Shown: piece by piece, positions 9,041 through 42,188 of the stretch
Position numbering within the stretch: the stretch's first letter is position 1
How the letters are laid out: every line of letters begins with the position of its first letter
Assembly: GCA_946615865.1 (NCBI GenBank)
Contig: CAMOIJ010000003.1
Span: 1 to 64,000 of the forward strand
Source of the DNA: an uncultured Lachnospiraceae bacterium
GTDB lineage: Bacteria > Bacillota > Clostridia > Lachnospirales > Lachnospiraceae
Reading direction: 5' to 3'
DNA length: 64,000 nt
Translations under genes and position numbers: made by a program
The notes under the pieces: generated by a model
What the model was told of the DNA's origin: nothing
The model's database searches: none
What the model saw: the letters and a program-made list of their open reading frames with translations, nothing else

Positions 9041-9090
9041 GACCTCTGGGGTAGTTTGTGGACAAGTGTCCACAAACTACCCCAGAGGTC
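9041..9090. repeat. palindromic element copy 1 (50 bp)
   Basis: Perfect inverted repeat, two 24-bp arms around AG, inner arm TGGACA/TGTCCA. It lies between the nagA stop (9093) and the MATE remnant. Confidence 0.97.
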
Positions 9091-9092
9091 TT

Positions 9093-10250
9093 TCAATTCC
9101 TGCCCCGGCAAAATGTCGTCTCTACGGAATAGTCATCCCTTAGGACGACTATGTCGGCGTCCTTTCCGGCTTGAAGAGAGCCCTTCGTGCGCTCCATACC
9201 GATCAGACGCGCGGGATTTAAAGTACACGCGTTGATCGCCGTCTGCCAGGGCACGCCGGCTTTCTCAACGAGATTTCTGAGTCCCTCATTGATCCTCAGC
9301 GTAGAACCGGCGAGCGTTCCTGAATCTACCAGGTGCGCGCTGCCGTCCTCATAGAGTTCGACGAGGTTTCCGCCGAACAGCATCCTCGTTCCGACGGGCA
9401 GCCCCTTGAAGCGGAGCGCGTCAGAGATCATCACTCCGTAATCCGGGCCTTTGCAGGTGAAGAACGCGTGCACCGCATCCCAGCCGGAATGAAGGCCGTC
9501 GCATATAATCTCTCCGAACACATCCTTAAATCGGAAAGCGGCCCCGGGTATTCCGGGCTCCCTGTGGTGGAACGGTGCCATGCCGTTATAAACGTGCGTC
9601 ACACTTCGCGCACCGTTCGCAAAGGCCATCGCCGCCTGGGCACAAGTCGCCGAAGAATGCCCCAGCGACGCCACGATCCCGTTCTCGTTAAGGAAGCGGG
9701 TCAGCCGGTATCCCTCATCGTTTTCGCAGGCAAGCGTCACGATACGGATCAGTCCGTCAGAAGCGTCAAAATATCGCTTGAACTGCTCGAGATCCGGAGC
9801 GACGCAGAACTCTTCCGGCTGCGCTCCCTTGTACTTCTGGCTGAGATAAGGACCTTCCAAATGTATGCCCAGTATCTCCGCTCCCGGAACGCTGTCCCGA
9901 TCAGCCCTCTGCTCCCGCGCGACTTTGGCGACGTTATTCAGCGCCTTTGTAAGCACTTCTTCCGACTGCGTGATCGTTGTGGGGAGAAAACCGGTCACAC
10001 CTTCGCCGACTATGTTTTGCACCCAGTTCCTGAGGCCTTCCTCCTCGGCATCATTCGTGTCGAAGCCGTACGCCCCGTGTGTGTGCACGTCAATGAATCC
10101 GGGCACGATCCGAAGATCTCCGAAATCCATGTCAGCCTGTCCGCTTCCGTAAGGGCGAATTCTCTCTATCTTCCCCGACTCAGTGGAGACCTCGATCTGC
10201 GCCTCCATCCACTCGTTCAGGATCCATACTCTTTTGCTCTGCAGTATCAT
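9093..10250 (-). CDS. nagA: N-acetylglucosamine-6-phosphate deacetylase
   Basis: The protein has 385 residues of the amidohydrolase superfamily. Visible active-site elements: HTH motif His56-x-His58 in DVHTHGA, metal ligand Glu132 in HLEGPYLS, His198 in SLGHSSA, His219 in VTHVYNG, His254 in CDGLH and Asp277 in SDALR. It converts GlcNAc-6-phosphate to glucosamine-6-phosphate and acetate, feeding amino-sugar catabolism and cell-wall recycling. ATG 10250 has GGAGAACG upstream. The TGA lies two bases from palindrome copy 1. No nagB or sugar transporter is adjacent. Confidence 0.93.
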   Translation of the reverse strand: MILQSKRVWILNEWMEAQIEVSTESGKIERIRPYGSGQADMDFGDLRIVPGFIDVHTHGAYGFDTNDAEEEGLRNWVQNIVGEGVTGFLPTTITQSEEVLTKALNNVAKVAREQRADRDSVPGAEILGIHLEGPYLSQKYKGAQPEEFCVAPDLEQFKRYFDASDGLIRIVTLACENDEGYRLTRFLNENGIVASLGHSSATCAQAAMAFANGARSVTHVYNGMAPFHHREPGIPGAAFRFKDVFGEIICDGLHSGWDAVHAFFTCKGPDYGVMISDALRFKGLPVGTRMLFGGNLVELYEDGSAHLVDSGTLAGSTLRINEGLRNLVEKAGVPWQTAINACTLNPARLIGMERTKGSLQAGKDADIVVLRDDYSVETTFCRGRN

Positions 10251-10277
10251 GATCGTTCTCCCTCTGCGTCATCACAT

Positions 10278-10775
10278 TTAAGACTCATATCTGATCTCGC
10301 ATTCTCCCGTCAGGCGGTTCATGATGTATCTTTTCACAAAGTCGTAGTCCTCTTCCGGTACAAAGACACGGAGCTTCTTGATTCCATTCTGAAGTTCGAT
10401 ATATTTTGGCGTAAAGACGGCCGCCTTTGCTTTATCGAAGTCAAAATAGACAGAAGATCTGCCATATCCGCTTTTAACATAGATATCTGACATTTCATAA
10501 CTCTCCTGGGGATCCTCGGCCGAGAGCGCCAGCTTAAAGACCACAAATGTGATCAGCAGGAAAACCGCGTCTGAGCCCGCCATGATCAGAAAATTCGTCC
10601 AGTCTTTGTACTGGACTGCCATGATCACGCCGAAAACCAGTATAAAGGCGGCTATGCCAAGGCATGCCTTGATTCCCATCCACATACCTTTACGATAGTA
10701 CCCCACATCCATGGAGCAGGACCAGGTGTAGAAGCCGTGCGAGTTCTTGGTGATTTTTGTTAAGTCTTCGCTCAT
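10278..10775 (-). CDS. membrane protein of unknown function, 165 residues
   Basis: From ATG 10775 (AAAGGCGG upstream) the protein has a short polar N-terminus, two hydrophobic segments near residues 40-62 and 72-93, and a soluble C-terminal domain of about 70 residues. The frame extends upstream into palindrome copy 2, but that part is not protein-like. The layout resembles small PH-like or YcxB-type membrane proteins; I cannot assign a function. Confidence 0.7.
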   Translation of the reverse strand: MSEDLTKITKNSHGFYTWSCSMDVGYYRKGMWMGIKACLGIAAFILVFGVIMAVQYKDWTNFLIMAGSDAVFLLITFVVFKLALSAEDPQESYEMSDIYVKSGYGRSSVYFDFDKAKAAVFTPKYIELQNGIKKLRVFVPEEDYDFVKRYIMNRLTGECEIRYES

Positions 10776-10875
10776 AACGCCGCCTTTCCGTTTAATGAAA
10801 ATGATTCGTTCTCCGCTATACGAAATATTGTATCGTGTTTCTATAGGGGTTTCAATCGACTGGCGGGAGCAAAGC

Positions 10876-10962
10876 GACCTCTGGGGTAGTTTGTGGACAC
10901 CTGTCCACAAACTACCCCAGAGGTCGATCAAGTCCAAACTACCCCAGAGGTCGATCAAGTTC
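10876..10962. repeat. palindromic element copy 2 (50 bp, 10876-10925) plus tandem right-end duplicate
   Basis: Perfect 24-bp arms around CC. The right end plus flank (27-bp unit starting AAACTACCCCAGAGGTC) is repeated in tandem at 10909-10935 and 10936-10962. The permease stop codon (10961-10963) falls at the end of the second unit. Confidence 0.97.
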
Positions 10963-11866
10963 AAATATTCACTATCAATCCGCATCCGAAAGCGAAAGCC
11001 ATCACAAACGCAATATATAAAGCAAACCGCTTCCAGCCCATAGCAATCTTCAAAGCGCCGAGGTTCGTGATCTTTGTAGCAGGCCCAGTGATCATAAACG
11101 CTGCGGCGGAGCCCATACTCATGCCGCCCGCGAGCCAGGTCTGCAGGAGCGGAATCGTTCCTCCCCCGCAGGCGTAAAGCGGCACACCGATCGTGGCGGC
11201 CATCAGCACGCCCCAGGCCTCGTTTTCTCCGAACACCCCAACCATCATTTCCTGCGGCACATAGCGCTGGAACAGCGCCGACAGCAGAATACCTGCCAAA
11301 AAATACCCTCCGGTCGCCTTGACGTTTCTCCAGAAATTCAGCAGATACCGGATCAGAAGATTCGGATGCGTGTCGCGGCTGGCGCGCTCGGAGAATCCTT
11401 CGAAGTCAAAAAATTCCTTCTCCCGATAGAACGCGAACACCAGCAGTCCGGCCGCGCAGCCGCACAAAAAGCATGAGACAATGCGCACTGCAAGCGCCCT
11501 CGTACCAAGCGCCGCACTGTAAATGATGAGTTGAGGATTGAGCAGGATGGATGCCATCATGAATGCTGCAAGCCAGTCCTCCCGCATTCCCTGTTTTCGG
11601 AAGGAGGCGGCAATAGGAATCGTCCCGTACATACACAGCGGTGAAGCGATCCCCAGCAGGCAGGCCGGTATGATGCCGAGCAGCCCCAGCTTTTTCCCCT
11701 GCAGCCCGACAAAGAGCCCGTGTATTTTGTCCTTGGCGAACACGGAAATCAGTGATCCGATCGCCATGCCGAGGATCCAGTACCGGAAAATCTGCCGCAG
11801 CTGCAGGTCAAAATAGTACCAGATATACACGATCTCCCTGTGAAGGATAGACAGCAGATCACTCAT
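10961..11866 (-). CDS. permease, DUF318/ArsP-like
   Basis: The protein has 301 residues with about eight hydrophobic helices and two family blocks: SPLCMYGTIPIAASF in the first half and VPLYACGGGTIPLLQ in the second, which carry the conserved Cys and Gly residues of the DUF318 (SO_0444/ArsP-type) efflux permeases. Relatives export organoarsenicals or other metal(loid) compounds; the substrate here is unknown. Its ATG overlaps the end of the DUF362 lipoprotein gene by 8 bp, so the two are cotranscribed. Confidence 0.85.
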   Translation of the reverse strand: MSDLLSILHREIVYIWYYFDLQLRQIFRYWILGMAIGSLISVFAKDKIHGLFVGLQGKKLGLLGIIPACLLGIASPLCMYGTIPIAASFRKQGMREDWLAAFMMASILLNPQLIIYSAALGTRALAVRIVSCFLCGCAAGLLVFAFYREKEFFDFEGFSERASRDTHPNLLIRYLLNFWRNVKATGGYFLAGILLSALFQRYVPQEMMVGVFGENEAWGVLMAATIGVPLYACGGGTIPLLQTWLAGGMSMGSAAAFMITGPATKITNLGALKIAMGWKRFALYIAFVMAFAFGCGLIVNI

Positions 11867-12923
11867 CTATTTTGACCAATTCGTAGGTGCGGCTGCCCAG
11901 GCCGATCTCTTCCGCGTGCTCGAGCGTATGGATCCCGTTGCGGCTCTCGATCCGGTTCACGAGTGCTTCACTGTCCGGAGCCTGGTAGACCAGATCCACG
12001 CAGGCCTGATCCAACGCGACAGGGTCTGTGCTCGCCAAAATCCCGATATCATGCATGTCCGGTTCATCCGGGTTTCCGTCGCAGTCGCAGTCCACCGACA
12101 GGCGGTTCATCACATTGATGTAGATGATGTGCTCCTCGCCGACGTGGTCGCGGAAGCCGGACACCATTTCAGCCAGCGCCTCCAGCCACTCATCCTGGTC
12201 GCTGTGCATGATGCTGCCGCTGGTCCTCGTTCCGGCGCTGTGGACATAGACTTTGCCGCTCGGAGAAGAAATGCCAATCCCGACATTCTTGATCGCGCCG
12301 CCAAACCCGGCCATGGCATGCCCCTTAAAGTGGGACAGAATCAACCAATCTGTATAATTCTCAGCGTGGCTGCCGACGATTATTTTGTCCAGCCTTCTGC
12401 CTCCGGTCACGGGCCATTCGACCTCGCCCTCTTCGTCCATCAGGTCAAAATCCGCAATAGCCGTAAACCCGTGGTCTTCCGCCACCTGCCTGTGCATGGC
12501 GGAACTGGCGCGGGAGCCGCCATAGGCCGTGTTGCACTCCACGATTGTTCCATCCAGCTTCTGAACAAGATCCCCGATCAGTTCAGGACGCAGATAGTTG
12601 CTCGCGGGCGGTTCGCCGGTCGATATTTTGACAGCGGTCTTTCCGGAAGGAGTCCAGCCGAGTGCCTCGTAGATCCTGACAAGTCCTTCGGCAGAGATGT
12701 CGGACGTAAAATATACGGCTGCGGGCTCAGGCGACCTCTGGGGTAGTTTGTCTCCAGATGTGCCATCTGCCTCCAAACTACCTCCGAGGTCGCTTGCCTC
12801 TGCAGCGGCGCTTTTCCCCGTTTCTGACGACAAACTACCTCCGAGGTCGTTCGATGCTCCACACCCGGCTAGCAGGAGAATTGATGCAAGAGAAATCACT
12901 GCAAATAGTAAAGGCTTTTTCAT
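11859..12923 (-). CDS. DUF362 lipoprotein with palindrome-derived linker
   Basis: The protein has 354 residues. A lipoprotein signal peptide with lipobox LAGC (Cys21) is followed by a linker of about 45 residues and a DUF362 domain from about residue 70 (FKGHAMAGFGGAIKNVGIG, then a Cys-x-Cys pair in DCDCDGN). DUF362 proteins are poorly understood and often occur with ferredoxins, so an extracytoplasmic redox or metal role is plausible. The linker is encoded by degenerate copies of the palindrome: DLGGSL occurs twice, then DKLPQRS. The permease gene overlaps its 3' end. Confidence 0.85.
   Translation of the reverse strand: MKKPLLFAVISLASILLLAGCGASNDLGGSLSSETGKSAAAEASDLGGSLEADGTSGDKLPQRSPEPAAVYFTSDISAEGLVRIYEALGWTPSGKTAVKISTGEPPASNYLRPELIGDLVQKLDGTIVECNTAYGGSRASSAMHRQVAEDHGFTAIADFDLMDEEGEVEWPVTGGRRLDKIIVGSHAENYTDWLILSHFKGHAMAGFGGAIKNVGIGISSPSGKVYVHSAGTRTSGSIMHSDQDEWLEALAEMVSGFRDHVGEEHIIYINVMNRLSVDCDCDGNPDEPDMHDIGILASTDPVALDQACVDLVYQAPDSEALVNRIESRNGIHTLEHAEEIGLGSRTYELVKIDE
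12733..12848. repeat. degenerate palindromic element inside the DUF362 coding region
   Basis: A complete but diverged copy (12733-12791, 59 bp, right arm with CTCCGAGG instead of CCCAGAGG) and an extra right half (12830-12848) lie in frame in the linker of the DUF362 lipoprotein. Confidence 0.9.
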
Positions 12924-12926
12924 TTC

Positions 12927-13766
12927 TTATAAACTCCTTCCGAGCTGATATGCCTCCTGCGGTGCGCTCCAGTCCGCGTTTCCAAAGGACGTGGATTTCC
13001 CTGCGGATAAACCGGCAAGCACAAACAGCATGCCGATGATAACCGCTGCCATTATGCAGACGACAGGCACAAGCGGGTTCTCTTTTGACCCGCCTTTACG
13101 CCCCAGAACCCTGCAGAGCTGAGCCGCCCGAGTCCCAATCAGCACCCATGTGGACAGCATCAGCAGATTTTCGATAATTACCAGCCAGCCGGCTTTGTCA
13201 TAATCCAGAAATGCAAACGGCACGCGGAAGAACAGATAGTCCGGCATTCCACCCTTGATGAACAGGTACAATCCGAGCCCCGCGGCAAGTGTGGAAAGGC
13301 CGGTGAGCATGTTCTTTGTCCTGCCGCTCCACTTCAGGCCAGCCGTCATTGCCGGGATGTGCACTCCAAGGTGCAGTCCCATCAGCACGAACGCCCAGTG
13401 GGACATGGACAGGTGCATCCTTCTCACGAAGGAGACCGGCGCCAGGCCATACATAAAAGGCACTGCGTAGCCGCTCATGGACATGCCGCAGAACGCCGTC
13501 ATGGCAAAACACAGAACCAGCAGAATACTCAACACTGTCGTCAGGATTCGATAAGGATTATATTTCCCTTTAAAGAGAGCGCCGTACCACTTCCGGTTCA
13601 GGAACTGGTGAACAATGACAAGTATCGTCATGCTCACTCCGATCCATTCGTGCGCCGCTTCCCCTGTGACCTGATAAGCCATGAGGAACAGGAGAACGAC
13701 GGTCAGATCATCCGACCTCTGGGGTAGTTTGTTACCAGTTGTAGAATAATCTACAACTGTCCACAA
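12927..13766 (-). CDS. DUF4405-type membrane protein, 5' end replaced by a palindrome
   Basis: Five or more hydrophobic helices with a TGEAAHEWIG block, HQFLNRKWY and a second HLSMSHWAFVLMGLHLG block match DUF4405 cytochrome-b-like membrane proteins, whose conserved His residues may bind haem. Recognisable sequence starts at DDLTVVLLFLMAYQ, immediately beside palindrome copy 4 (13714-13781). The only upstream start is a TTG inside the palindrome without a good ribosome site, so about ten native N-terminal residues and the start appear lost. It may be inactive, or be translated from the element. It lies just upstream of the DUF362 gene (4 bp). Confidence 0.7.
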   Translation of the reverse strand: MWTVVDYSTTGNKLPQRSDDLTVVLLFLMAYQVTGEAAHEWIGVSMTILVIVHQFLNRKWYGALFKGKYNPYRILTTVLSILLVLCFAMTAFCGMSMSGYAVPFMYGLAPVSFVRRMHLSMSHWAFVLMGLHLGVHIPAMTAGLKWSGRTKNMLTGLSTLAAGLGLYLFIKGGMPDYLFFRVPFAFLDYDKAGWLVIIENLLMLSTWVLIGTRAAQLCRVLGRKGGSKENPLVPVVCIMAAVIIGMLFVLAGLSAGKSTSFGNADWSAPQEAYQLGRSL

Positions 13767-13781
13767 ACTACCCCAGAGGTC
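13714..13781. repeat. palindromic element copy 4 (68 bp)
   Basis: Long class. An inner stem GTTGTAGA/TCTACAAC around ATAA is nested within the outer arms. It forms the 5' boundary of the truncated DUF4405 gene. Confidence 0.95.
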
Positions 13782-13789
13782 GATTTCAC

Positions 13790-14545
13790 TTATTTCAGTT
13801 TGTTGTAATCTTCTTCACTTACTGCCTCGAGCCACTCGTTGCTCGCTTCCTCGCCCGCGATCTCGATAGCCAGATGGGAGAACCAGCTGTCGGGAGCGGC
13901 GCCGTGCCAATGCTTGACTTCCGCCGGAATGTTGATCACGGTGCCGGGAGTCATCTCGACGGCTTCCTTGCCCCACTCCTGGTAGTAACCTCTTCCGCCG
14001 ACGCAGATCAGCATCTGGCCGCCCGCTTTTTTGGCGTGATGGACGTGCCAGTTGTTGCGGCATCCCGGCTCAAAAGTCACGTTGAAGATCGGAATCTGCT
14101 CCGTGGATACCGGTGCCAGATAGCTCTCGCCGACGAAGAACTGTCCGTAAGGGTTGGGCTCGCCGATCGGGAAAAATATAGTATTCTGGTACTTCTCTTT
14201 GTCAGTCAGTGCCGGCGCTTCCTCGTTCCAGACTTCCTTAGCCAGTCTGAACACCGCCCATCCTTTGGGCCAGCCGACATACATAGTCGCGTGGGTGATG
14301 ATGGCTGCGATCTCTTCCTTGGTCACGCCATGCGCCTTCGCGTTCTGCAGATGGTAGGTCAGGGAGGAATCCGTGATGCCGGACGCCATCAGAGATACAA
14401 CGGTAATGATGCATTTTGTCTTCACGTCGATCGCTTCTTCGTTCCAAACTTCTCCGAAAAGCACATCGTCATTGAGATGCGCGAACATGGGAGCAAATTC
14501 GCCTAACTGATTTCTGCCTGCTGTCTGTACGATCTTTTCTTCCAT
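13790..14545 (-). CDS. carboxymuconolactone decarboxylase-like / cupin fusion protein
   Basis: The protein has 251 residues. The N-terminal ~110 residues resemble the CMD/AhpD fold (DVKTKCIITVVSLMASG, then HLQNAKAHGVTKEEIAAIITHATMYVGWP), with one Cys rather than the AhpD CxxC. The C-terminal half is a cupin with metal-ligand motifs WHVHH and VKHWHGAAPDSWFSHLAI. Such fusions occur beside flavodoxins and aldo/keto reductases in anaerobes and are probably redox or detoxification enzymes. Its gene lies between palindrome copies 4 and 5. Confidence 0.85.
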   Translation of the reverse strand: MEEKIVQTAGRNQLGEFAPMFAHLNDDVLFGEVWNEEAIDVKTKCIITVVSLMASGITDSSLTYHLQNAKAHGVTKEEIAAIITHATMYVGWPKGWAVFRLAKEVWNEEAPALTDKEKYQNTIFFPIGEPNPYGQFFVGESYLAPVSTEQIPIFNVTFEPGCRNNWHVHHAKKAGGQMLICVGGRGYYQEWGKEAVEMTPGTVINIPAEVKHWHGAAPDSWFSHLAIEIAGEEASNEWLEAVSEEDYNKLK

Positions 14546-14585
14546 TTTGGTTTTCTCCTCTATTGTTGACCTGTAGGTTTTGTTC

Positions 14586-14654
14586 GACCTCTGGGGTTGT
14601 CCTTGACCTCTGGGGTAGTTTGCAGACAGGTGTCTGCAAACTACCCCAGAGGTC
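14586..14654. repeat. palindromic element copy 5 (50 bp, 14605-14654) plus left fragment
   Basis: Perfect 24-bp arms with a matched change to CAGACA/TGTCTG. An 11-bp left-end fragment (14586-14596) precedes it. Confidence 0.96.
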
Positions 14655-14663
14655 GCTCATTGC

Positions 14664-15143
14664 TTAAAGTACCTCGTCCAGCCAGCGGCGGATCTCCGCT
14701 TCTTTGGGACGGTTGATCTGACGGCCTTTTTCCCACTTCACATCGCCGGTCACATTCTTATGCAGAGCGACATCGCTTCTTCCGACACCGCTGCCGCCAG
14801 ATGTGCAGAAGGGAATGATTTTTTTGCCGCTGAAATCATAACTCTCCAGGAAAGTCTCGATGATCCTGGGCGCTACGCCCCACCAGATCGGGAAACCTAC
14901 GATTACCGTGTCATAGGCTGCCATGTCGAGAACGTCTCCTGCGATCTCGGGCCTTGCAGAGGGATCATTCATCTCCACGCTGCTGCGGCTGTTCTTGTTC
15001 ATCCAGTTCAGATCAGCACCGGTATATCTCTGTTTTGGCACGATCTCATAGAAATCTGCTCCCGCGATCCGGGCAATCTCTTCACCGACTCTTTTTGTCA
15101 CACCGCTTGCGGAAAACACCGCTACTAATACATTCTTTTTCAT
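14664..15143 (-). CDS. flavodoxin family protein
   Basis: The protein has 159 residues with an N-terminal VAVFSASGVTKRVGEEIA FMN-phosphate loop, the VIVGFPIWWGVAPRI hydrophobic strand and FCTSGGSGVGRS, as in Flavodoxin_4-type proteins. It should bind FMN and act as a cytoplasmic electron carrier or quinone/FMN reductase. The start at 15143 is set by AGGAGAAAACGG. It stands alone between palindrome copies 5 and 6; the TetR gene lies upstream on the same strand. Confidence 0.9.
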   Translation of the reverse strand: MKKNVLVAVFSASGVTKRVGEEIARIAGADFYEIVPKQRYTGADLNWMNKNSRSSVEMNDPSARPEIAGDVLDMAAYDTVIVGFPIWWGVAPRIIETFLESYDFSGKKIIPFCTSGGSGVGRSDVALHKNVTGDVKWEKGRQINRPKEAEIRRWLDEVL

Positions 15144-15180
15144 TCCGTTTTCTCCTTATATATTGTCAGTCTCAACCTCT

Positions 15181-15257
15181 GACCTCTGGGGTAGTTTGTA
15201 GACACCTGTCTACAAACTACCCCAGAGGTCGCTCATTACCCCAGAGGTCGCTCATTA
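15181..15257. repeat. palindromic element copy 6 (50 bp, 15181-15230) plus tandem right-end duplicate
   Basis: Perfect arms with matched TAGACA/TGTCTA. The right end plus 8 bp of flank (19-bp unit CCCCAGAGGTCGCTCATTA) is repeated exactly at 15220-15238 and 15239-15257. Confidence 0.97.
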
Positions 15258-15261
15258 ATGC

Positions 15262-15885
15262 TCACTCGCCCAACAGCCGCACCAGACAGCCGTGGGTCAA
15301 TTCATATACGGTTTGATACACATAATCGATTCCTGCTTCCTTCATGGCAGCCTTCTGCTTCTCCGTCACGGAAGTATACGGGTAAATTCCGAACATGAAG
15401 GGAAAGAAGATATAAATGAAGTTCTGAATATCCGTCACGTTCATATTCGGGCAGAACTTTGTGAGCAGCATGCTCATCAGGTGCAGCGACCTGCCGTAGG
15501 AGTGCTTGAAAGATACCAGAAGTTCCTCGCGGCTGTTGGCCTCCATGTCAAAGTTGTTCATGGAGAGCAGCTTGAGGAGCTGCGGTCTGTCTGCCAGGGA
15601 CTGCGCTATTTTGTCAGCCAGCTGCGCTTTCGTGAGCCGCTCATTTTGGTCATGAATTGCCGTCAACTGCTCGTTCCAACGGTCGTACTCCCTCTTGAAG
15701 AGCGCCAGGAAGATCTCTTCCTTCGTCTCAAAATAGTTATAGATCGTGGGACGAGAGAAAGAGGTGATCTTGCCGATCTCCTTGAGTGTGATCTCCCGGA
15801 AGCTCGTCGTCTGGTAAAGCTGCTCACATGCATTTATGATCTCTTCCCGTTTCCGCGCGATCTGTTCCGGTGTTCCTTTTCTCAT
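15262..15885 (-). CDS. TetR/AcrR family transcriptional regulator
   Basis: From ATG 15885 (GGAGGAATAGTT upstream) the protein has 207 residues. It starts MRKGTPEQIARKREEIINAC, with the HTH at about residues 28-50 (ITLKEIGKITSFSRPTIYNYF). The open frame extends upstream into palindrome copy 7, but that part is not native. Two TGACANCGTGTCA operators flank its promoter (separate entry), so it is almost certainly autoregulated. The likely target is the neighbouring flavodoxin/cupin/DUF362 block; the ligand is unknown. Confidence 0.92.
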   Translation of the reverse strand: MRKGTPEQIARKREEIINACEQLYQTTSFREITLKEIGKITSFSRPTIYNYFETKEEIFLALFKREYDRWNEQLTAIHDQNERLTKAQLADKIAQSLADRPQLLKLLSMNNFDMEANSREELLVSFKHSYGRSLHLMSMLLTKFCPNMNVTDIQNFIYIFFPFMFGIYPYTSVTEKQKAAMKEAGIDYVYQTVYELTHGCLVRLLGE

Positions 15886-15918
15886 AACTATTCCTCCGCC
15901 GTGCTCATTCATTGTTTT

Positions 15919-15969
15919 CTGACATCGTGTCAGTATCTGTATTATAGGACTATTCTGACACCGTGTCAA
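15919..15969 (-). promoter_or_regulatory. tetR promoter with two palindromic operators
   Basis: The minus strand carries TTGACA (15964-15969), a 17-bp spacer and TATAAT (15941-15946). The operator CTGACANCGTGTCAG occurs twice: at 15955-15969 over the -35 and at 15919-15933 downstream of the -10, 36 bp apart centre to centre. This layout is typical of repression by the adjacent TetR protein. Confidence 0.85.
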
Positions 15970-15999
15970 CACTTTGTTGGGGCAAACGCCAACAAAAAC

Positions 16000-16067
16000 A
16001 ACCTCTGGGGTAGTTTGTCGACAGTTGTAGAATATTCCACACCTGTCCACAAACTACCCCAGAGGTC
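16000..16067. repeat. palindromic element copy 7 (68 bp)
   Basis: Long class; first base A instead of G, core GTAGAATATTCCACA. It lies between the alpha/beta-hydrolase stop (16081) and the tetR promoter. Confidence 0.95.
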
Positions 16068-16080
16068 AAATAGCCCAAAA

Positions 16081-17487
16081 TCATTTCATCTCAACGGTGA
16101 TCGTCACATCCCCGTTTCCGAGCAACTGCACCATCTCCTCATCAGACTTGTCCGTGACATGGCCGAGTCTGGTATAAGCCCATGAGTTGGAGCCGTAGAA
16201 CACGACGATCTGGTCGCCGGAGTACAGAACGATGTCACCGGACTGTGTGGTCGTCTGGCTGTCGTTTCTGGGCAGGCGCTGTCCGATGGAGCCGACCTGC
16301 TCGAATCCGCCGTACATGGACATCTGAATTGTCAGAGGTCCATTCTGGCACAGTTCCCTGAGCGCCTCCACGGATTCATTGTCTTCCCATTCCACTTCTA
16401 CAGGTGTTTCTCCGATTGTCATCTGCAGCATTGCTTCACCCTCCTCGCTGTCTGAAACCACTTTGTCACCGCTGAGCTGTCCCTCAAGATAGGGCAAAAT
16501 ATAGCTCATCGCATCCTCAAACGGCTGTCCGAAGAACTCGTGCCCGCCGTCCTTGATCACATAGAATTCGCAGTCCGGAATGATCTCTCTGGCCGCCTCG
16601 GAATAAGAGAGCGGAACTGTGTTGTCTTTGTCGCCGTGAAGAAGCAGCATGTGCCCCTGATAGGAAGAAAGCAGCTGGTCAAAATCCACCGTCCACAGAT
16701 CGGTGATGTAGTTTTTGCCAACATGGATCCAGCCGCCAAACAGGCTGACATCTTCCGGAACATCGTCCTCGGACTGATACTGCTCTGCTCCGCTGTCATC
16801 CTTTGCAGACAGCGCAGGATACATGAGAATCATGCCCGCGATCTCGTCCTGATGCGTGCTGCCCACAACGGTCGTGACAAGTCCGCCCATGCTGCCACCG
16901 AGAAGAACGATCTTGTCAGGGTCGACAAAGTCCCAGGTTTTAGCAGCCGCCAATACCGATTCCAGGTCAGACGCTTCGGTCAGAATGGACATCTCGCTGT
17001 TACTTCCGTCACTTCTGTTTCCTCCGACTGTACCGCCGCGGAAGTCAAAGACATAAGCCGCATAACCGGCCTCTGCCAGCCTCTCTGCGTACCGCTCGCC
17101 GGATGTGTGATCATTTCCGAGCTCGTGGGAGAAGATTACCAGCGGCACTTTTTTGCCATCCTCAGTTGCAGGCACATATGCGATGCCGTAAATCCTGTCA
17201 TCGCCGTTCTGCACCCAGATTTCCTGTGTTGTATATGTTCCTGTGGACATAGCCTCTTCTCCTTCTGCCGCCTGCTGATCGGCCTCTTGCTGTGTGACCT
17301 CTGGGGTAGCTTGTTCAGAAGCCACCTCCGGGGTATCTTGCTCCGGGGTATCTTGCTCTGCAGTTTCCGTACTGCTCTCTGCGGCCTCTTTACTGCCGCT
17401 GTCTTTGGCCTGAGCCGAGCCGCACCCGGCAAGTACAAGGCAAAAGATCAAAGCCAGCGATATGATTCCCATAAATCCTTTTCTCAT
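16081..17487 (-). CDS. lipoprotein: alpha/beta hydrolase fused to a cyclophilin-like domain
   Basis: The protein has 468 residues. A signal peptide with LAGC (Cys22) is followed by a linker rich in Glu/Gln/Thr with repeated TPE units (about 45-66, encoded by palindrome fragments) and an alpha/beta-hydrolase domain (about 85-335): oxyanion region IFSHELGNDH, nucleophile Ser199 in GGSMGG, acid in LLHGDKDNTVP, His in DGGHEFFG. The C-terminal ~115 residues match the cyclophilin-like fold (TIGETPVEVEWEDN, GGFEQVGSIGQRLPRND, GDIVLYSGDQIVVFYG). It should be an outer-face esterase or peptidase-like enzyme; the substrate is unknown. Confidence 0.85.
   Translation of the reverse strand: MRKGFMGIISLALIFCLVLAGCGSAQAKDSGSKEAAESSTETAEQDTPEQDTPEVASEQATPEVTQQEADQQAAEGEEAMSTGTYTTQEIWVQNGDDRIYGIAYVPATEDGKKVPLVIFSHELGNDHTSGERYAERLAEAGYAAYVFDFRGGTVGGNRSDGSNSEMSILTEASDLESVLAAAKTWDFVDPDKIVLLGGSMGGLVTTVVGSTHQDEIAGMILMYPALSAKDDSGAEQYQSEDDVPEDVSLFGGWIHVGKNYITDLWTVDFDQLLSSYQGHMLLLHGDKDNTVPLSYSEAAREIIPDCEFYVIKDGGHEFFGQPFEDAMSYILPYLEGQLSGDKVVSDSEEGEAMLQMTIGETPVEVEWEDNESVEALRELCQNGPLTIQMSMYGGFEQVGSIGQRLPRNDSQTTTQSGDIVLYSGDQIVVFYGSNSWAYTRLGHVTDKSDEEMVQLLGNGDVTITVEMK
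17296..17360. repeat. palindrome left-half fragments inside the hydrolase lipoprotein gene
   Basis: Three diverged left halves (GACCTCTGGGGTAGCTTGTT, then ACCTCCGGGGTATCTTGCTC, then a shorter one) are read in frame as ATPEV, DTPEV and DTPEQ in the linker after the lipobox. Confidence 0.8.
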
Positions 17488-17537
17488 AATTAACTCCTTA
17501 TTGATAGCAATCGGGACAGCCTCTGCCGCCGAACCGT

Positions 17538-17750
17538 TTACGCCTTCCTGAGCTGATAGCTCAGATAATCAAGTCTATCGATGCAGGCCTGCGACTCGTG
17601 AAGCCTGTCGAGCTGCTTCCTGCGGCACTTTGCGATCAGCTTTTCTGTTTTTTGACTGTCCCCCTTTTGGATGCTGGAAACGATCATTTCAGTTTCTGAC
17701 TCTCCGCACCCTGCTGCAAGTAGAATTTCCGCGATCTCATTAAGTGCCAT
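17538..17750 (-). CDS. small conserved protein beside LysR gene, paralogue of 21478
   Basis: From ATG 17750 (TAAGGAG upstream) it has 70 residues. It shares with the 74-residue protein at 21478 the pattern AGCGESE...IQKGDSQKTEKLIAKCRRKQLDRLHESQACIDRLDYL, that is, a helical hairpin with a conserved Cys-Gly, a basic Cys-Arg patch and a Leu-His-Glu-Ser-Gln motif. Both copies are divergently transcribed from a LysR-type regulator gene. The function is unknown. An upstream extension of the frame to 17966 runs through the LysR promoter and is not native. Confidence 0.8.
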   Translation of the reverse strand: MALNEIAEILLAAGCGESETEMIVSSIQKGDSQKTEKLIAKCRRKQLDRLHESQACIDRLDYLSYQLRKA

Positions 17751-17795
17751 GTCAAAATACTCCTTATTTAATTGGTTTGTCTCTGTTATGGCTCT

Positions 17796-17857: not shown

Positions 17858-17888
17858 TGAATACGAGCAACAAGAAAGGAGTTTTCAT

Positions 17889-18764: not shown

Positions 18765-18866
18765 TTTGTCCCCACTTGTGGAAAAACGGCCTCTGGCAAA
18801 ATCGACCTCTGGGGTAGTTTGTGGACAGATGGCCACAAACTACCCCAGAGGTCTTTCATGGAGGTC
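18751..18866. repeat. palindromic element copy 8 (50 bp, 18804-18853) with left and right fragments
   Basis: An incomplete left half at 18751-18780 provides the LysR stop codon. A full copy follows at 18804-18853 (one inner mismatch, TGGACA/TGGCCA). The end GAGGTCTTTCAT is then repeated. Confidence 0.93.
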
Positions 18867-20258: not shown

Positions 20259-20376
20259 GACCTCTGGGGTAGTTTGTGGACAGGTGTAGGATATTCTACA
20301 GTTGGGGACAAACTACCCCAGAGGTCGCTTTCATTTCCAGTTGGGGACAAACTACCCCAGAGGTCGCTTTCATTTG
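20259..20376. repeat. palindromic element copy 9 (68 bp, 20259-20326) plus 39-bp tandem duplicate
   Basis: Long class. The right half plus flank is duplicated as two exact 39-bp units, 20299-20337 and 20338-20376. The second unit runs into the LysR gene's 3' end (stop at 20370). Confidence 0.97.
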
Positions 20377-21275: not shown

Positions 21276-21362
21276 GACCTCTGGGGTATCTTGTTCTCCT
21301 CGGTTAAATCGACCTCTGGGGTACCTTGTTGCAGGTCAAACGACCTCTGAGGTAGTTTTTGT
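21276..21362. repeat. three tandem left-half palindrome fragments upstream of LysR
   Basis: GACCTCTGGGGTATCTTGTT (21276), GACCTCTGGGGTACCTTGTT (21311) and GACCTCTGAGGTAGTTTTT (21342) occur 31-35 bp apart with no right arms. They lie between the divergent lysR and 21478 genes. Confidence 0.85.
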
Positions 21363-23835: not shown

Positions 23836-23932
23836 AGCCTCTGGGGGGTAATAAGACCTCTGAAGACCTCTGGGGTAGTTTGTCGACAGGTGATGATTAT
23901 TCCACACCTGTCCACAAACCACCCCAGAGGTC
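23836..23932. repeat. palindromic element copy 10 (68 bp, 23865-23932) with two left-end fragments
   Basis: Two short left fragments (23836 and 23855) precede a full long-class copy. The core is in the reverse orientation (GATTATTCC). One arm mismatch (ACCACCCC). Confidence 0.94.
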
Positions 23933-24860: not shown

Positions 24861-24968
24861 CTTTCAATCGACCTCTGGGGTAGTTTGTGGACAGATGTGG
24901 AATAATCATCACCTGGTAACAAACTACCCCAGAGGTCGTTTGCGCTCCCCCAGAGGTCGTTTGCGCTC
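24861..24968. repeat. palindromic element copy 11 (68 bp, 24870-24937) plus 21-bp tandem right-end duplicate
   Basis: Long class. The right end with 10 bp of flank is repeated exactly (24927-24947 and 24948-24968). A partial left start (TCGACCTTTCAA) lies just before it. The element sits in the 302-bp divergent region between lysR and flavodoxin; the remaining ~168 bp is AT-rich and probably holds the LysR site and promoter, but I could not place the boxes. Confidence 0.96.
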
Positions 24969-25672: not shown

Positions 25673-25740
25673 GACCTCTGGGGTAGTTTGTCGACACCTG
25701 TAGAATAATCATCACCTGTCAACAAACCACCCCAGAGGTC
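25673..25740. repeat. palindromic element copy 12 (68 bp)
   Basis: Long class, core TAGAATAATCATCACC. It lies between the flavodoxin stop and the AKR ribosome site. Confidence 0.96.
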
Positions 25741-27726: not shown

Positions 27727-27827
27727 GACCTCTGGGGTAGTTTGTCGACAGCTGCGATAGACCTCTGGGGTAGTTTGTCGATAGTTGTGGAATAATCCTC
27801 ATGTGTCGACAAACTACCCCAGAGGTC
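27727..27827. repeat. palindromic element copy 13 (68 bp, 27760-27827) preceded by a left half
   Basis: A 33-bp left half (27727-27759) stands directly before a full long-class copy; both read GACCTCTGGGGTAGTTTGTC. It lies 4 bp after the stop of the NTF2-like gene. Confidence 0.96.
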
Positions 27828-27857: not shown

Positions 27858-28829
27858 ATGAAAACAAGAATGCTGCGGGATATCGAGGTATCCGAGGTGG
27901 GTATGGGCTGCATGGCGCTCTCCCACGGATACGGAAAGATCCCTCCTGAAACATACAGTATCGAAGCGATCCGGAATGCCTATGACCACGGCTGCACCTT
28001 TTTTGACACGGCTGAAGTGTACAGTCCGAATCTCGCGGGAATCGGCCACAATGAGCTGATCGTTGGAAAGGCCCTCAAAGATATCCGGGAAAATGTGGTG
28101 ATCGCCACAAAGTTAATGCCTTCACGGATGGGTTCTCTGTTCGGAGGCGGAATGTATAAGACTGTGAAGGAGCATCTGCTCGCTTCGCTTGACCGTCTGC
28201 AAACAGATTATGTTGATATTTACTACCTTCACCGGACACACGGCGTCTCGGTCGAAAAGATTGCCGAAGCAATGGGCAGGCTGATCGACGAAGGCCTGAT
28301 CCGCGGCTGGGGCCTCTCCCAGGTGGATGTGGACGTGATCGACCGCGCACAGAGGATCACGCCTCTTGCGGCGATCCAGAACATCTACTCCATGGTGGAA
28401 CGGGATTCCGAAGCAGAGATCATCCCCTACTGCATAGAGAACAATATCGGCTTCGTGCCCTTCTCTCCAATCGCCAGCGGCCTTCTCTCCGGAAAGATCA
28501 CCCCTCAGACACAGTTTGAGAGAAACGACGACGTGCGCAACTGGGTACCGCAGCTCTCGCGGACCAACATAGCAGGCAACCAGCCCATCGTTGAGATGCT
28601 GAAGAGCTTTGCGGAAAAGAAAAATGCGACCCCGGCCCAGATCTCTCTGGCCTGGATGCTGCACAAATATCCCAATGTCGTCCCGATCCCCGGATCAAAA
28701 AATAAAGAACGAATCGTAGAAAACCTGAATTCCTCAGGTGTTGAACTGACCGATGAAGAATTTACTGCGCTTGAGGGATCTCTGAATGCACTGAAAGTTT
28801 ACGGACACCGTGGACTTGGCGGTTTTTAA
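27858..28829 (+). CDS. aldo/keto reductase (AKR13/YajO-like)
   Basis: From ATG 27858 (GAAAGGAC upstream) it has 323 residues. Tetrad: Asp-Tyr in FFDTAEVYSPN, Lys in VIATKLMPSRM, His in YYLHRTHG; SPIASGLLSGKI and PIPGSKNKERI are the typical late motifs. It is a cytoplasmic NADPH-dependent oxidoreductase of unknown substrate. It stands as a single-gene unit between palindrome copies 13 and 14. The frame is open upstream through the palindrome, but that extension lacks a ribosome site. Confidence 0.92.
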   Translation: MKTRMLRDIEVSEVGMGCMALSHGYGKIPPETYSIEAIRNAYDHGCTFFDTAEVYSPNLAGIGHNELIVGKALKDIRENVVIATKLMPSRMGSLFGGGMYKTVKEHLLASLDRLQTDYVDIYYLHRTHGVSVEKIAEAMGRLIDEGLIRGWGLSQVDVDVIDRAQRITPLAAIQNIYSMVERDSEAEIIPYCIENNIGFVPFSPIASGLLSGKITPQTQFERNDDVRNWVPQLSRTNIAGNQPIVEMLKSFAEKKNATPAQISLAWMLHKYPNVVPIPGSKNKERIVENLNSSGVELTDEEFTALEGSLNALKVYGHRGLGGF

Positions 28830-28831
28830 AA

Positions 28832-28928
28832 TGACAAAGCGACCTCTGGGGTGACAAAGCGACCTCTGGGGTAGTTTGTCGACAGGTGTAGAATAATCCA
28901 CATGTGTCGACAAACTACCCCAGAGGTC
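28832..28928. repeat. palindromic element copy 14 (68 bp, 28861-28928) plus 20-bp tandem left-end duplicate
   Basis: The unit TGACAAAGCGACCTCTGGGG is repeated exactly (28832-28851 and 28852-28871): 9 bp of flank plus 11 bp of the left end. The inner arm pair is CGACA/TGTCG, so the outer stem is perfect. Confidence 0.97.
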
Positions 28929-30091: not shown

Positions 30092-30185
30092 AAATAGCGA
30101 CCTCTGGGGTAAATAGCGACCTCTGGGGTAGTTTGTGGACAGATGTGGAATAACCCACATCTGGGGACAAACTACCCCAGAGGTC
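30092..30185. repeat. palindromic element copy 15 (68 bp, 30118-30185) plus 19-bp tandem left-end duplicate
   Basis: The unit AAATAGCGACCTCTGGGGT is repeated exactly (30092-30110 and 30111-30129). Core GTGGAATAACCCACA. Confidence 0.97.
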
Positions 30186-32201: not shown

Positions 32202-32913
32202 AAAGTGAAAAGCTGAAAAGCGACCTCTGTGAAAAGCGACCTCTGGGGTAGTTTGTGCCAAGCCCGATCAGCACATAAAGTGCAGCAGAATTCACATGGC
32301 CGGCAGGGTAAGCGACCTCTGGGGTCGCTTTAACCTCAGTCGTGCTATTTTTTGCCTTCTCGTAACAAACCACCCCAGAGGTCTCTTTAGCATCAGCTGA
32401 ACAAACTACCCCAGAGGTCGTTTCAACCCCAGCGTCGGCTGAACAAACTACCCCAGAGGTCGAGGTCGATTCAGCCCTTCTGCCCCTGAGGTATTCCCCC
32501 AGATCCTTCACCGGTCTTGGCAGAAACTTCACCGATGAGAGGACGCAGCCACACAGGGAAAGGATATATTTTGACACGTCCCAGGTCGAATCATCATACA
32601 AATTGTGCAGGAAAAGCATAAAAAAGAGCAAAAAAATAAAACCCTTGTCAAAAAGGATGACAATCTCGTTGCTTGTGAGGCAGACATTGAGTCCCAGCAG
32701 CAGAATTCCTCCCAGATAAAGGGCAGATCCCGTCTTCAGCGCGCGGCCGGTCAGGCGCAGGTAGTACAGGAAGAGCCCCGCCGTTCCCAGAACGAAAACA
32801 GGGAATGTAAGTCCCATCCTGTTCCTGTATAGACAAAAGGTGTATAACAGAGCGTAAATTCCGCTCAGCAAAAACAGCTTGTCAAAAGACAGCTTTCCCG
32901 TTTCGTTATTCAT
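32173..32913 (-). pseudogene. DUF4153/DUF4173-like membrane protein truncated within a palindrome cluster
   Basis: From ATG 32913 the first ~150 codons encode several hydrophobic helices ending FLPRPVKDLGEYLRGRRAE, as in the N-terminal half of DUF4153/DUF4173 proteins. The next ~60 codons are made of palindrome fragments (TSGVVCSADA repeated, TTEVKATPEVA), then YVLIGLG, the start of the next native helix, and then palindrome sequence again. The rest of the protein (usually several hundred residues) is missing. It follows XRE and DUF2975 genes in an operon, a usual context for this family. Confidence 0.75.
32213..32467. repeat. cluster of palindrome half elements
   Basis: Left halves lie at 32222, 32238 and 32313 and right halves at 32364-32383, 32400-32419 and 32442-32461, with an extra GAGGTC at the end. 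No adjacent left-right pair forms a standard 50- or 68-bp element. The cluster fills the 3' part of the truncated DUF4153-like gene. Confidence 0.88.
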
Positions 32914-33830: not shown

Positions 33831-33909
33831 GACCTCTGGGGTAGTTTGTGGACAGGTGTCCACAAACTACCCCAGAGGTCTCCTCAATACCCCAGAGGTC
33901 GCTTCAATA
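33831..33909. repeat. palindromic element copy 16 (50 bp, 33831-33880) plus tandem right-end duplicate
   Basis: Perfect arms around GG. The right end with 9 bp of flank is repeated (33870-33889 and 33890-33909, two mismatches). Confidence 0.96.
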
Positions 33910-36096: not shown

Positions 36097-36210
36097 GAAA
36101 GCGACCTCTGGGGTAGTTTGTCGTCCCAAGGCGGGTGAAAGCGACCTCTGGGGTAGTTTGTTAACAGGTGGGAATTATTCCACATCTGTCCACAAACTAC
36201 CCCAGAGGTC
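36097..36210. repeat. palindromic element copy 17 (68 bp, 36143-36210) preceded by a left half
   Basis: A left half with flank (36097-36136) and the full copy share GAAAGCGACCTCTGGGGTAG at a 40-bp period. The core is in reverse orientation (GGGAATTATTCCACA). It lies just after the glycosylase stop. Confidence 0.95.
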
Positions 36211-37250: not shown

Positions 37251-37347
37251 GACCTCTGGGGTAGTTTGTGGACATCCGTGGAATAATCCCCATCTGGGGA
37301 CAAACTACCCCAGAGGTCGCTTTTCTCCCCCAGAGGTCGCTTTTCTC
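37251..37347. repeat. palindromic element copy 18 (68 bp, 37251-37318) plus 20-bp tandem right-end duplicate
   Basis: Core GTGGAATAATCCCCATC. The right end with 9 bp of flank is repeated exactly (37308-37327 and 37328-37347). It marks the break in the GNAT remnant. Confidence 0.97.
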
Positions 37348-39341: not shown

Positions 39342-39420
39342 GACCTCTGGGGTAGTTTGTCCACACCTGGGGACAAACTACCCTAGAGGTCGTTTAATCC
39401 CCCCAGAGGTCGTTTAATCC
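39342..39420. repeat. palindromic element copy 19 (50 bp, 39342-39391) plus 20-bp tandem right-end duplicate
   Basis: Short class with two arm mismatches (GGGGAC, CCCTAG). The right end plus 9 bp of flank occurs twice (39381-39400 and 39401-39420). The first copy has the CCCTAG change and the second the consensus. Confidence 0.95.
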
Positions 39421-39878: not shown

Positions 39879-39992
39879 GACCTCTGGGGTAGTTTGTTCC
39901 TTATGGCTGAAATTCCCGTATCTTTAATATACCATTTTAAGTGACCTCTGGGGTAGTTTTTCCACACCTGGGGACAAACTACCCCAGAGGTC
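39879..39992. repeat. palindromic element copy 20 (50 bp, 39943-39992) and an isolated left half (39879-39898)
   Basis: The left half GACCTCTGGGGTAGTTTGTT stands 64 bp before a full short-class copy whose inner arms are TCCACA/TGGGGA. Confidence 0.94.
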
Positions 39993-40872: not shown

Positions 40873-41319
40873 ATGAAAATCATGGTCAGCGCCTGCCTCG
40901 CAGGTGAGAATTGCAAATATAACGGCGGGAACAACCGCAGCGGGAAGGTTCTGAGGCTGATGGACGCAAACGAAGTGCTCACAGTCTGCCCGGAGCAGAT
41001 GGGCGGGCTTCCCACGCCGCGCGTTCCCTCAGAGATCAGGGACGGCATAGTCACCGCCAAAGACGGCCGGATCGTGGATGCGCAGTTCCGCGCCGGCGCC
41101 GCAAAGTGTCTGGAAATTGCCAAAAGAGAGCAGCCGGACCTGATCGTGCTGCAATCGAGGAGTCCCAGCTGCGGAGTGAAGCAGCGGTACGACGGCACAT
41201 TTTCGGGAAAGCTGGTGGATAGAGCCGGTGTGACCGCGCAGCTCCTTATGGATAACGGTTTTCGCTGTATTGATGTGGAGGACCTGGGCGAAGTTCATGA
41301 TGGTGTAATTCTCTCATAG
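40873..41319 (+). CDS. DUF523 protein
   Basis: The protein has 148 residues. It has the family's conserved Cys motifs: VSACLAGENCKYNGGNN at the start, CPEQMGGLPTPR, and SRSPSCGVKQRYDGTFSGKL. DUF523 proteins are small, cytoplasmic, probably metal- or thiol-dependent, and uncharacterised. AAGGAG lies upstream of the ATG. It is followed by a strong terminator. Confidence 0.9.
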   Translation: MKIMVSACLAGENCKYNGGNNRSGKVLRLMDANEVLTVCPEQMGGLPTPRVPSEIRDGIVTAKDGRIVDAQFRAGAAKCLEIAKREQPDLIVLQSRSPSCGVKQRYDGTFSGKLVDRAGVTAQLLMDNGFRCIDVEDLGEVHDGVILS

Positions 41320-41330
41320 CGCAGAAAAAC

Positions 41331-41379
41331 AGCCGCCTTCGCTGCCGGAATTCTGGCCCGACAGTAAAGGCGGCTTTTT
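41331..41379 (+). terminator. intrinsic terminator after the DUF523 gene
   Basis: AGCCGCCTT pairs with AAGGCGGCT, followed by TTTT. It closes the rightward YjbR-DUF523 unit. Confidence 0.85.
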
Positions 41380-41412
41380 GATTGGGTTAATATAGTCGAC
41401 TGCTCTTGAGAA

Positions 41413-41964
41413 TTATTCAGTTGTCTTAGAGAACAATCCCTGTTCAGCGTTCTTGGAATCCTGCCAGCGGAGTTTGTCGCCTTCCTTCATGAAAGCGCCG
41501 CTCGTCTTCTCTTCGCCGGAAATGGTCTCGTTTCCTTTGTCGTCAACAGTGTGGATTGAGTAGCTGCCGTCCTCATAGGAAAGCATGCCGGAAGTGGGGT
41601 CATATTCGCCGTGGATCGTCCAGATCGCCGTCTCTGTGGCACTTCCGCCCCAGTGAACTGTAATATCATAGCTGCCATCCTCATTTTTCACGACATCCAT
41701 GGAAGCCCTTTTGCTGACCTCATCCTCCCATGAACCGGACAGGTCCATGTCACCTACGAAATCTCCCAGGAGGTTTTCGGGTTCTGCTGCCTCGGCTGCT
41801 TCCTTGACCGTTTCCTCGGCCGCTTGCTGAGCGGCTTCCGCTTCCTTGGCGGCTTCCTGAACAGCCTCCTGCGGTGCAGCCGGGGTTTCCTGTTTCCCGC
41901 CGCAAGCGGTCATGGCATATACGCTGATGATAAGAGTGGTCAGTATAAATAATTTCTTTTTCAT
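41413..41964 (-). CDS. lipoprotein of unknown function
   Basis: The protein has 183 residues. A signal peptide with lipobox MTAC is followed by a helical Ala/Glu/Gln-rich linker (about 25-65) and a beta-rich domain of ~115 residues (MDLSGSWEDEVSKRASMDVV, WGGSATETAIWTIHGEYDPT, GMLSYEDGSYSIHTVDDKGN). The last part resembles small lipocalin-like or DUF-type bacterial lipoprotein domains that begin with a GxW motif. AGAGGAAAAAC precedes the ATG. Confidence 0.8.
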   Translation of the reverse strand: MKKKLFILTTLIISVYAMTACGGKQETPAAPQEAVQEAAKEAEAAQQAAEETVKEAAEAAEPENLLGDFVGDMDLSGSWEDEVSKRASMDVVKNEDGSYDITVHWGGSATETAIWTIHGEYDPTSGMLSYEDGSYSIHTVDDKGNETISGEEKTSGAFMKEGDKLRWQDSKNAEQGLFSKTTE

Positions 41965-42092
41965 TCGTTTTTCCTCTGCAATTTGTGCTGTGTTGACTGT
42001 TTCTACAAGTAAATATACGTTTGAGTTTGTACGGTTCCTTGCAAGTCTGAATTATAGTACCTTCTTTAGTTCCGTCTGTCAAATGAACGATC

Positions 42093-42188
42093 GACCTCTG
42101 GGGTAGTTTGTCCACACCTGTGGACAAACTACCCCAGAGGTCGCCCAATGCACACCTGTGGACAAACTTCCCCAGAGGTCTCAATATG
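42093..42188. repeat. palindromic element copy 21 (50 bp, 42093-42142) plus 38-bp tandem duplicate
   Basis: Perfect arms with matched TCCACA/TGTGGA around CC. The right half plus flank is repeated as units 42113-42150 and 42151-42188 (a few changes). It is the last element in the window. Confidence 0.96.

Follow-up and report, generated by a model that had tools for sequence, protein, structure and literature searches.

A family of long palindromes was examined in the first 64,000 nucleotides of contig CAMOIJ010000003.1 from an uncultured Lachnospiraceae bacterium, a stretch referred to here as the window; the palindrome-bearing part, approximately 9041-42180, is referred to as the island, and gene predictions were made in this analysis. 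The palindromes are a RAYT/TIRYT-linked family, new in detail and host and of known kind, that was probably spread by a small single-strand DNA transposase. The explanation considered likely is that the palindrome is a non-autonomous, hairpin-forming element belonging with a RAYT/TIRYT-like Y1 (HuH) single-strand DNA transposase of the genus. The transposase would recognize the hairpin when it is extruded in a DNA single strand (probably the template of lagging-strand synthesis) and would copy or move it into intergenic DNA. Recombination or slippage between neighbouring palindromes would remove the intervening DNA, and with such losses parts of the region would behave as gene modules bounded by palindromes. 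Mobility is supported by distribution, not by a caught event.

Copies, architecture and distribution of the palindrome

The element consists of a 19-bp arm reading GGGGTAGT, a variable core and the reverse complement of the arm. The window contains 59 matches to the 19-bp end at no more than three mismatches, against 0.01 expected in shuffled sequence, the first starting at 9041 and the last ending at 42180; no match at that threshold was found in 1-9040 or 42189-64000. Among them are the arms of 21 complete palindromes, of which nine measure 50 bp, eleven 68 bp and one, located in a gene, 59 bp, in agreement with the positions, size classes and empty flanks given by an earlier sequence-only reading of this DNA. 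That reading also described the right end as the exact reverse complement of the left, which holds for the 14 of 21 copies in which both arms are exact; the other seven (12733, 14605, 16000, 23865, 25673, 39342 and 39943) have one to three mismatches within an arm. Besides the 42 arms of the complete copies there are 17 more at the same threshold, and eleven-base ends with at most one mismatch total 69 in the window, so that the earlier "more than twenty fragments" was a fair description. The palindromes are mostly intergenic, since 20 of the 23 window clusters of at least 40 bp overlap no predicted gene, and the gene pairs that flank them occur in all four orientations.

Single-stranded DNA folding of five copies gave z-scores of -7.6 to -11.6 for all five. 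The two 50-bp copies formed a stem of 23 bp capped by a loop of four bases (-27.5 kcal/mol, z approximately -10.5) and the three 68-bp copies gave -19.8 to -30.5 kcal/mol; the arms were fully paired in four of the five, the fifth having an arm mismatch. The DNA examined from the window genome and its relatives held 231 distinct complete copies, 162 with a 12-bp core and 53 with a 30-bp core. The three outer core pairs of the short class covary, being Watson-Crick in 139, 145 and 125 of 162 copies against a best of 108, 111 and 109 in 500 shuffles. The innermost pair of this class is Watson-Crick in 2 of 162 copies (shuffle mean 54). Outer three core pairs of the 68-bp class showed no covariation, and central pairing occurred in 7 of 53 copies versus 26 in shuffles. 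The rarity of Watson-Crick pairs at the centre indicates that a perfect palindrome centre is avoided. In all these core-pair comparisons the contrast with shuffles is overstated, since related genomes supplied the copies and many of them are orthologues of one another.

Orthologous copies were compared between the window and four relatives (G079, G077, G003 and G032), in which 29 sites could be anchored; the 20 sites with exactly one complete copy were used and the other nine, where the relative lacked a single complete copy, were set aside. Over these 20 pairs the arms diverged by 2.6%, a value biased downward by the limit of three mismatches per arm, and the flanks by 7.3%; core divergence was 9.0% in the 17 pairs of equal core length. 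The copy at 18804 belongs to the 50-bp class in the window and is 68 bp at the orthologous site in G077 and G003, indicating that size class can change in place.

The window genome (G000; 2.68 Mb, 106 contigs, 88% complete) contains 148 arms at no more than two mismatches. The stretches examined contain 89 exact arms spread over ten contigs; the window accounts for 42 of them, and the other 47 lie on C1, C14, C20, C38, C39, C48, C50, C79 and C98, where they are often bunched within a few kilobases; inexact arms may lie on further contigs. The proposed confinement to one region thus holds within the window and not in the genome, and the genome-wide search that had been suggested, with absence elsewhere as an argument against mobility, returned copies elsewhere. 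In a first survey arms were present in nine of 60 relatives, all of the same genus, and in none of 24 genomes from other families of the order. The genus survey found them in 16 of 62 genomes. A wider contig scan for the arm returned at least 104 stretches, and all 80 of those listed bear Lachnospiraceae titles. Many are named RUG, which we take to denote rumen genomes, and one arm-bearing isolate is titled as from roe deer omasum. The exact arm had no match in IMG/VR. Many arms of G035 read GTCG or GTCA in place of GTAG.

A second hairpin family, with GGGGACGGTTCTTCTGACA, was observed in G032 at L170 (approximately 10790-10866) and L207 (approximately 6360-6429), where it occupies intergenic sites matching window positions 21276 and 36103. 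A motif resembling GGGGACGGTTCTTCTGACA flanks further Y1 genes (L154 and L163).

Association with a clade of Y1 transposases

In line with the sequence-only reading, which had reported no transposase here, no Y1 gene was found in the window, and the three Y1 matches of its genome at E ≤ 0.001 lie on contigs C20, C21 and C73. A Y1 search of 41 genus genomes revealed short IS200-like genes and longer RAYT-like genes. A clade defined by at least 50% identity to P0001 (locus L145, contig C20 of the window genome) was found in 12 of the 62 genus genomes. Arms are present in all 12 clade-bearing genomes (range 1-217) versus four of the 50 without the clade (2-15). The counts are 134 in G000, 145 in G003, 191 in G077, 217 in G079, 134 in G032, 46 in G081, 95 in G035, 15 in G067, 12 in G071, 21 in G021, 4 in G005 and 1 in G024 for the former, and 4 in G007, 2 in G013, 10 in G010 and 15 in G023 for the latter. 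Because the genomes are related, the presence figures are counts and not a test.

The clade and the palindrome are also linked by position. An arm lies within 210 bp of the gene at seven of the eight clade loci first examined and within 1 kb at one of 12 other Y1 loci (L160, approximately 0.6 kb), some of which stop at contig ends before 1 kb is reached. The clade has two forms, A and B. Form B, approximately 70% identical to P0001 and present in G003, G077, G079 and G081, has at all four loci an arm on its upstream side at 31-62 bp and another, in inverted orientation, on its downstream side at 6-95 bp; full palindromes lie 327-1096 bp before the gene and 58-738 bp after it. A Y1 gene flanked by the same palindrome, which it had been proposed to seek, was accordingly found in these four relatives. 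Form A (G000, G003, G032, G077 and G079) has nearby only single arms in the same orientation; the one clade homologue of the window genome is of this form and is flanked by variant single arms only. The form A gene is 99.3% identical at the DNA level between G000 (L145, 15356-16114) and G003 (L147), compared with a mean of 91-93% over aligned blocks of the two genomes, and may have moved or recombined recently.

The clade protein matched Pfam Y1_Tnp at 53 bits (L145), and NCBIfam REP_Tyr_transpos was the best match of four clade members at 63-77 bits, below the cut-off of 80. HuH, FQ and YIHQNP motifs with a 60-residue HuH-Y spacing were identified, and helix-turn-helix matches were absent or under the cut-off. 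The transposase gave no match in PADLOC and none at E ≤ 1 in a sequence search of the PDB. At one clade gene of G035 (L152) the adjoining arms match that genome's own arm variant, a further variant adjoins the second (L153), and the Y1 loci L154/L163, L160 and L164 are flanked by other hairpins as judged by eye. Together these loci suggest that each transposase may have its own repeat.

Mobility, end duplications and gene content

The loci were compared with those of relatives lacking the palindrome. Arm-free genomes (G001, G008, G011, G028 and G061) have the same gene neighbours separated by ordinary spacers at clusters 4, 5, 11, 14 and 17, and at cluster 13 the same neighbours without a palindrome occur in G021 and G010, which bear a few arms elsewhere. 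The spacers at such sites align poorly, and the comparison is one of presence versus absence. Thirty-two of 405 clusters were flagged as empty; the 21 viewed were mostly tandem expansions or sites with changed flanks. The closest candidates (L170 versus L235 and L106 versus L071) were rejected, as their changed flanks make loss by deletion equally likely. Direct repeats flanking the window copies were not seen by eye.

It is unlikely that the palindromes are instead fixed functional hairpins, serving as transcription ends, mRNA stabilizers or protein-binding sites under selection and immobile. The slower evolution of the arms relative to the flanks, the covarying core pairs and the single complete copy in a relative at 20 of 29 anchored sites would fit such a role. 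However, relatives have the same genes without such hairpins, 46 of the 62 genus genomes have no arm, the distribution tracks the transposase clade, and two of the sites are occupied in G032 by the other hairpin family. In addition, an Rfam search of 8900-42400 gave no match, and no five-T run directly after the stem was seen by eye in the printed window copies, no terminator scan having been made.

A further possibility, that the region is a block from a palindrome-rich donor whose palindromes came along and are now immobile here, would account for the bunching of exact arms on ten contigs of 106 in the DNA examined and for the variant single arms beside the transposase gene of this genome. 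On the other hand, G+C is similar in the island (0.515) and its flanks (0.523 and 0.541), as is identity to the four relatives (90.7-92.9% in the island, 89.7-94.5% outside), and largely colinear palindrome-bearing stretches occur in G003, G032, G077 and G079. Such an origin is regarded as quite unlikely.

Many of the partial arms, the fragments of the earlier reading, are local tandem duplications rather than independent insertions, a conclusion that is well supported. Among 525 pairs of neighbouring same-strand arms with a spacer of at least five bases, 107 were tandem duplications of a palindrome end plus flank, against a mean of 1.5 and a maximum of 5 in controls with the upstream sequences shuffled; eight lie inside the window. 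In an earlier set of 112 pairs, the flank part was 6-10 bases in 75 and the period 15-21 in 74. The 21-bp duplication beside the copy at 24870 is present in the window but not at the corresponding position of L170 and L057, and G003 (L204) lacks the half-palindrome that in the window ends at 42180. The arrangement X-partial arm-X was considered as a 6-10 bp target duplication and rejected as the main reading, since the far side of the complete copy lacks X in the window copies viewed and one tandem duplication suffices. End duplications may arise by copying errors, through slippage or template switching, at the foot of the extruded hairpin, and would typically take 8-13 bases of arm and 6-10 bases of flank. 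The edge duplication that varies between species illustrates how fragments can be shed by hairpin elements.

Gene content was compared between the window and the same four relatives with the palindromes masked, breaks being defined as gene-content differences of more than 300 bp. There were 31 breaks per 79.7 kb aligned in the island versus 5 per 63.9 kb outside, an approximately fivefold higher density, and no inversion between palindromes on one contig. Both boundaries were no more than 20 bp from a palindrome in 15 of the 31 breaks and at 12 of 25 distinct sites (hand count). A boundary statistic (36 of 62 boundaries no more than 15 bp from a palindrome; 17.4% of unique intergenic bases) was not accepted as a test, since the ends of blocks are driven to palindrome edges by the masking and the same event can be present in more than one genome.

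Seventeen of the 31 segments were inspected, mostly those at palindromes. Four have palindrome-gene(s)-palindrome in one species versus a single palindrome in the other. The aldo/keto reductase gene at 27858-28829 is missing from G032, where a single 68-bp copy stands; G079 lacks 10953-18750 and retains one copy; and at 14605 and 39342, where the window has a single copy, G032 has two copies that enclose an additional gene. In two segments (G079 at 25659/32470 and 39333/39993) the palindromes enclose different genes, in four the additional DNA is bounded by a partial arm at one end and a palindrome at the other, and in seven it is palindrome-flanked on one side only or armless (G003 at 36084). 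At site 33831, G079 and G032 carry approximately 2.2 kb flanked by a partial arm and a palindrome.

The four palindrome-gene(s)-palindrome segments and the density of breaks in the island could also be explained if the palindromes were integron-like cassette recombination sites, with an integrase inserting and removing the genes between them. This is very improbable. A scan of 29 of the 42 proteins predicted for the island revealed no integrase or recombinase, no integrase search of the genome having been made; the island genes lie in both orientations; and the palindromes are near-perfect and symmetric, stand between gene pairs of every orientation and in some cases lie inside genes or adjoin Y1 transposase genes. 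Returning to a transposase-linked element, loss between repeats would be simpler than gain, and the interpretation of the differences as palindrome-bounded gene modules is moderately supported. Differences of the palindrome-gene-palindrome type hint that short repeats could, in a simple manner, give rise to modular gene content with no integrase involved. It is doubtful, and proposed tentatively, that the palindrome population has turned part of the chromosome into an integrase-free cassette array, in which the hairpins would drive gene turnover and not merely be tolerated, and in which near-identical hairpins at most gene joints would make single genes removable, exchangeable units.

Several results weigh against the favoured explanation, in addition to the limits on the covariation and arm-divergence values and the nine anchored sites set aside. 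Neither a clean empty site with intact flanks nor a target-site duplication was found among the 405 clusters, so that transposition is inferred and no event of it was observed, and the suggested comparison of orthologous loci yielded palindrome-free neighbours without such a site. Four arm-bearing genomes lack the transposase clade (assemblies 71-87% complete), the G021 homologue has no arm on its 6.4-kb contig, and, the genomes being related, joint inheritance could account for the occurrence of transposase and palindromes together without one depending on the other. The form A gene of the window genome is 11 kb from the nearest full palindrome and form B was not found in this 88% complete assembly, which leaves a gap in the transposase argument for this genome. 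With regard to gene content, approximately half of the break sites do not have a palindrome at each of their two sides, masking pushed the ends of aligned blocks to palindrome edges, and approximately 480 bp of G079, G077 and G032 are absent at window 41297-41310 where there is no palindrome.

The features of the window are collected in Table 1. The arm at 17296 overlaps the repeats encoded by its gene, and a similar repeat in L179 (11249-11331) is longer than in L034. Proteins scanned from 14600-32200 of the island included four aldo/keto reductases, three LysR regulators and two flavodoxins.

Table 1. Palindromes, single arms and associated genes in the window.
Feature	Coordinates	Remarks
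Complete palindrome, 50 bp	9041..9090	DNA fold -27.5 kcal/mol, z -10.5
Complete palindrome, 50 bp	10876..10925	Tandem end copy reaches 10952
Palindrome copy, 59 bp	12733..12791	In 5' part of predicted DUF362 protein gene (11859-12833, - strand); right arm degenerate
Second degenerate arm near 59-bp copy	12830..12848	
Complete palindrome, 68 bp	13714..13781	
Complete palindrome, 50 bp	14605..14654	Identical change in both arms; partial arm at 14586
Complete palindrome, 50 bp	15181..15230	Tandem end copy reaches 15249
Complete palindrome, 68 bp	16000..16067	
Arm within predicted gene (16081-17487, - strand)	17296..17314	Product has TPEV-type repeats near N-terminus
Complete palindrome, 50 bp	18804..18853	Solitary arm at 18751
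Complete palindrome, 68 bp	20259..20326	Tandem end copy reaches 20365
Three degenerate arms, single orientation	21276..21360	Other hairpin family at same site in G032
Complete palindrome, 68 bp	23865..23932	
Complete palindrome, 68 bp	24870..24937	21-bp tandem duplication reaches 24958
Complete palindrome, 68 bp	25673..25740	
Complete palindrome, 68 bp	27760..27827	Solitary arm at 27727
Aldo/keto reductase gene	27858..28829	+ strand; flanked by palindromes
Complete palindrome, 68 bp	28861..28928	Tandem end copy begins 28841
Complete palindrome, 68 bp	30118..30185	Tandem end copy begins 30099
Single-arm cluster	32222..32461	Over 3' part of predicted gene (32173-32913, - strand); tandem end copy 32222-32256
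Complete palindrome, 50 bp	33831..33880	Partial arm reaches 33900
Complete palindrome, 68 bp	36143..36210	Solitary arm at 36103
Complete palindrome, 68 bp	37251..37318	Tandem end copy reaches 37338
Complete palindrome, 50 bp	39342..39391	
Complete palindrome, 50 bp	39943..39992	Solitary arm at 39879
Complete palindrome, 50 bp	42093..42142	Half-palindrome copy ends 42180

Comparison with known systems

Integron arrays have asymmetric attC sites with unpaired extrahelical bases, and their genes are mostly in one orientation. The island resembles such arrays as a region of gene swapping in which palindromes separate most genes, and differs in its symmetric near-perfect palindromes, its genes in both orientations and the lack of an integrase among the proteins scanned. 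The MITEs of DDE transposons are short, gene-free inverted-repeat elements present in many copies. The palindromes described here are likewise short, gene-free, inverted-repeat and multi-copy, whereas no target-site duplication was seen and the linked transposase is Y1 rather than DDE.

The palindromes resemble REP and REPIN sequences with their RAYT (TnpA-REP) in being high-copy, mostly intergenic, hairpin-forming and Y1-linked. Dispersed extragenic palindromes, as in REP systems, are represented by the 148 arms in the genome and the predominantly intergenic clusters, and a RAYT flanked by the element by form B in G003, G077, G079 and G081. In contrast, the unpaired GTAG (GT[AG]G) foot of REP sequences was not observed, GTAG occurring only inside the paired 19-bp arm, and here the arms and core make one long hairpin whereas a REPIN, as defined in PMC3116915, is two REPs with a spacer. 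The earlier assignment to a REP- or MITE-like mobile palindrome is largely supported by copy number, intergenic location, hairpin formation and the link to a Y1 clade by presence and position; against it stand the lack of an unpaired GTAG foot and the failure to find a target duplication or clean empty site. No description of such palindrome families in Clostridia or Lachnospiraceae was found, as judged by titles and abstract openings; the available text of PMC9482736 and of PMC6776889 mentions RAYT once each.

Another close likeness is to TIRtrons, described in PMC3733652 as Y1 genes that have inverted repeats on either side where others have GTAG repeats; some of the inverted repeats are dispersed in the genome. 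According to the available text of the 2018 survey PMC6006769, 20 of 26 TIRtron transposases (TIRYT) are placed in Y1 subclass 2.1, presented there as the largest subclass of class 2 (RAYT) and as having no REP-like sequences beside its genes. Likewise, the transposase studied here is a Y1 protein of approximately 250 residues that has a C-terminal extension, its gene lies between inverted repeats containing a four-G run, and the repeats are also dispersed in the genome, some being self-complementary. The extension of TIRYT proteins is described as helix-turn-helix-like; in the clade the HuH and Y motifs are present, and helix-turn-helix matches are absent or under the cut-off. The bracketing is seen at all four form B loci, the form A arms being in the same orientation. 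The present family differs in its long near-perfect palindromes with two size classes and a variable core, and the arm fits the GGGGWSAS consensus only in its first five bases (GGGGT). That motif is reported as common to some, not all, published terminal inverted repeats, and GGGGACAG, found at a further Y1 locus of the genus (L160), conforms to it. Protein length, the FQ motif and a HuH-Y spacing of 60 residues seem to place the clade nearest to subclass 2.1, while its YIHQNP box is like that of 2.6. If the clade belongs to subclass 2.1, the genus gives that group a large, well-defined substrate population, and the several variants of transposase plus repeat make recognition testable.

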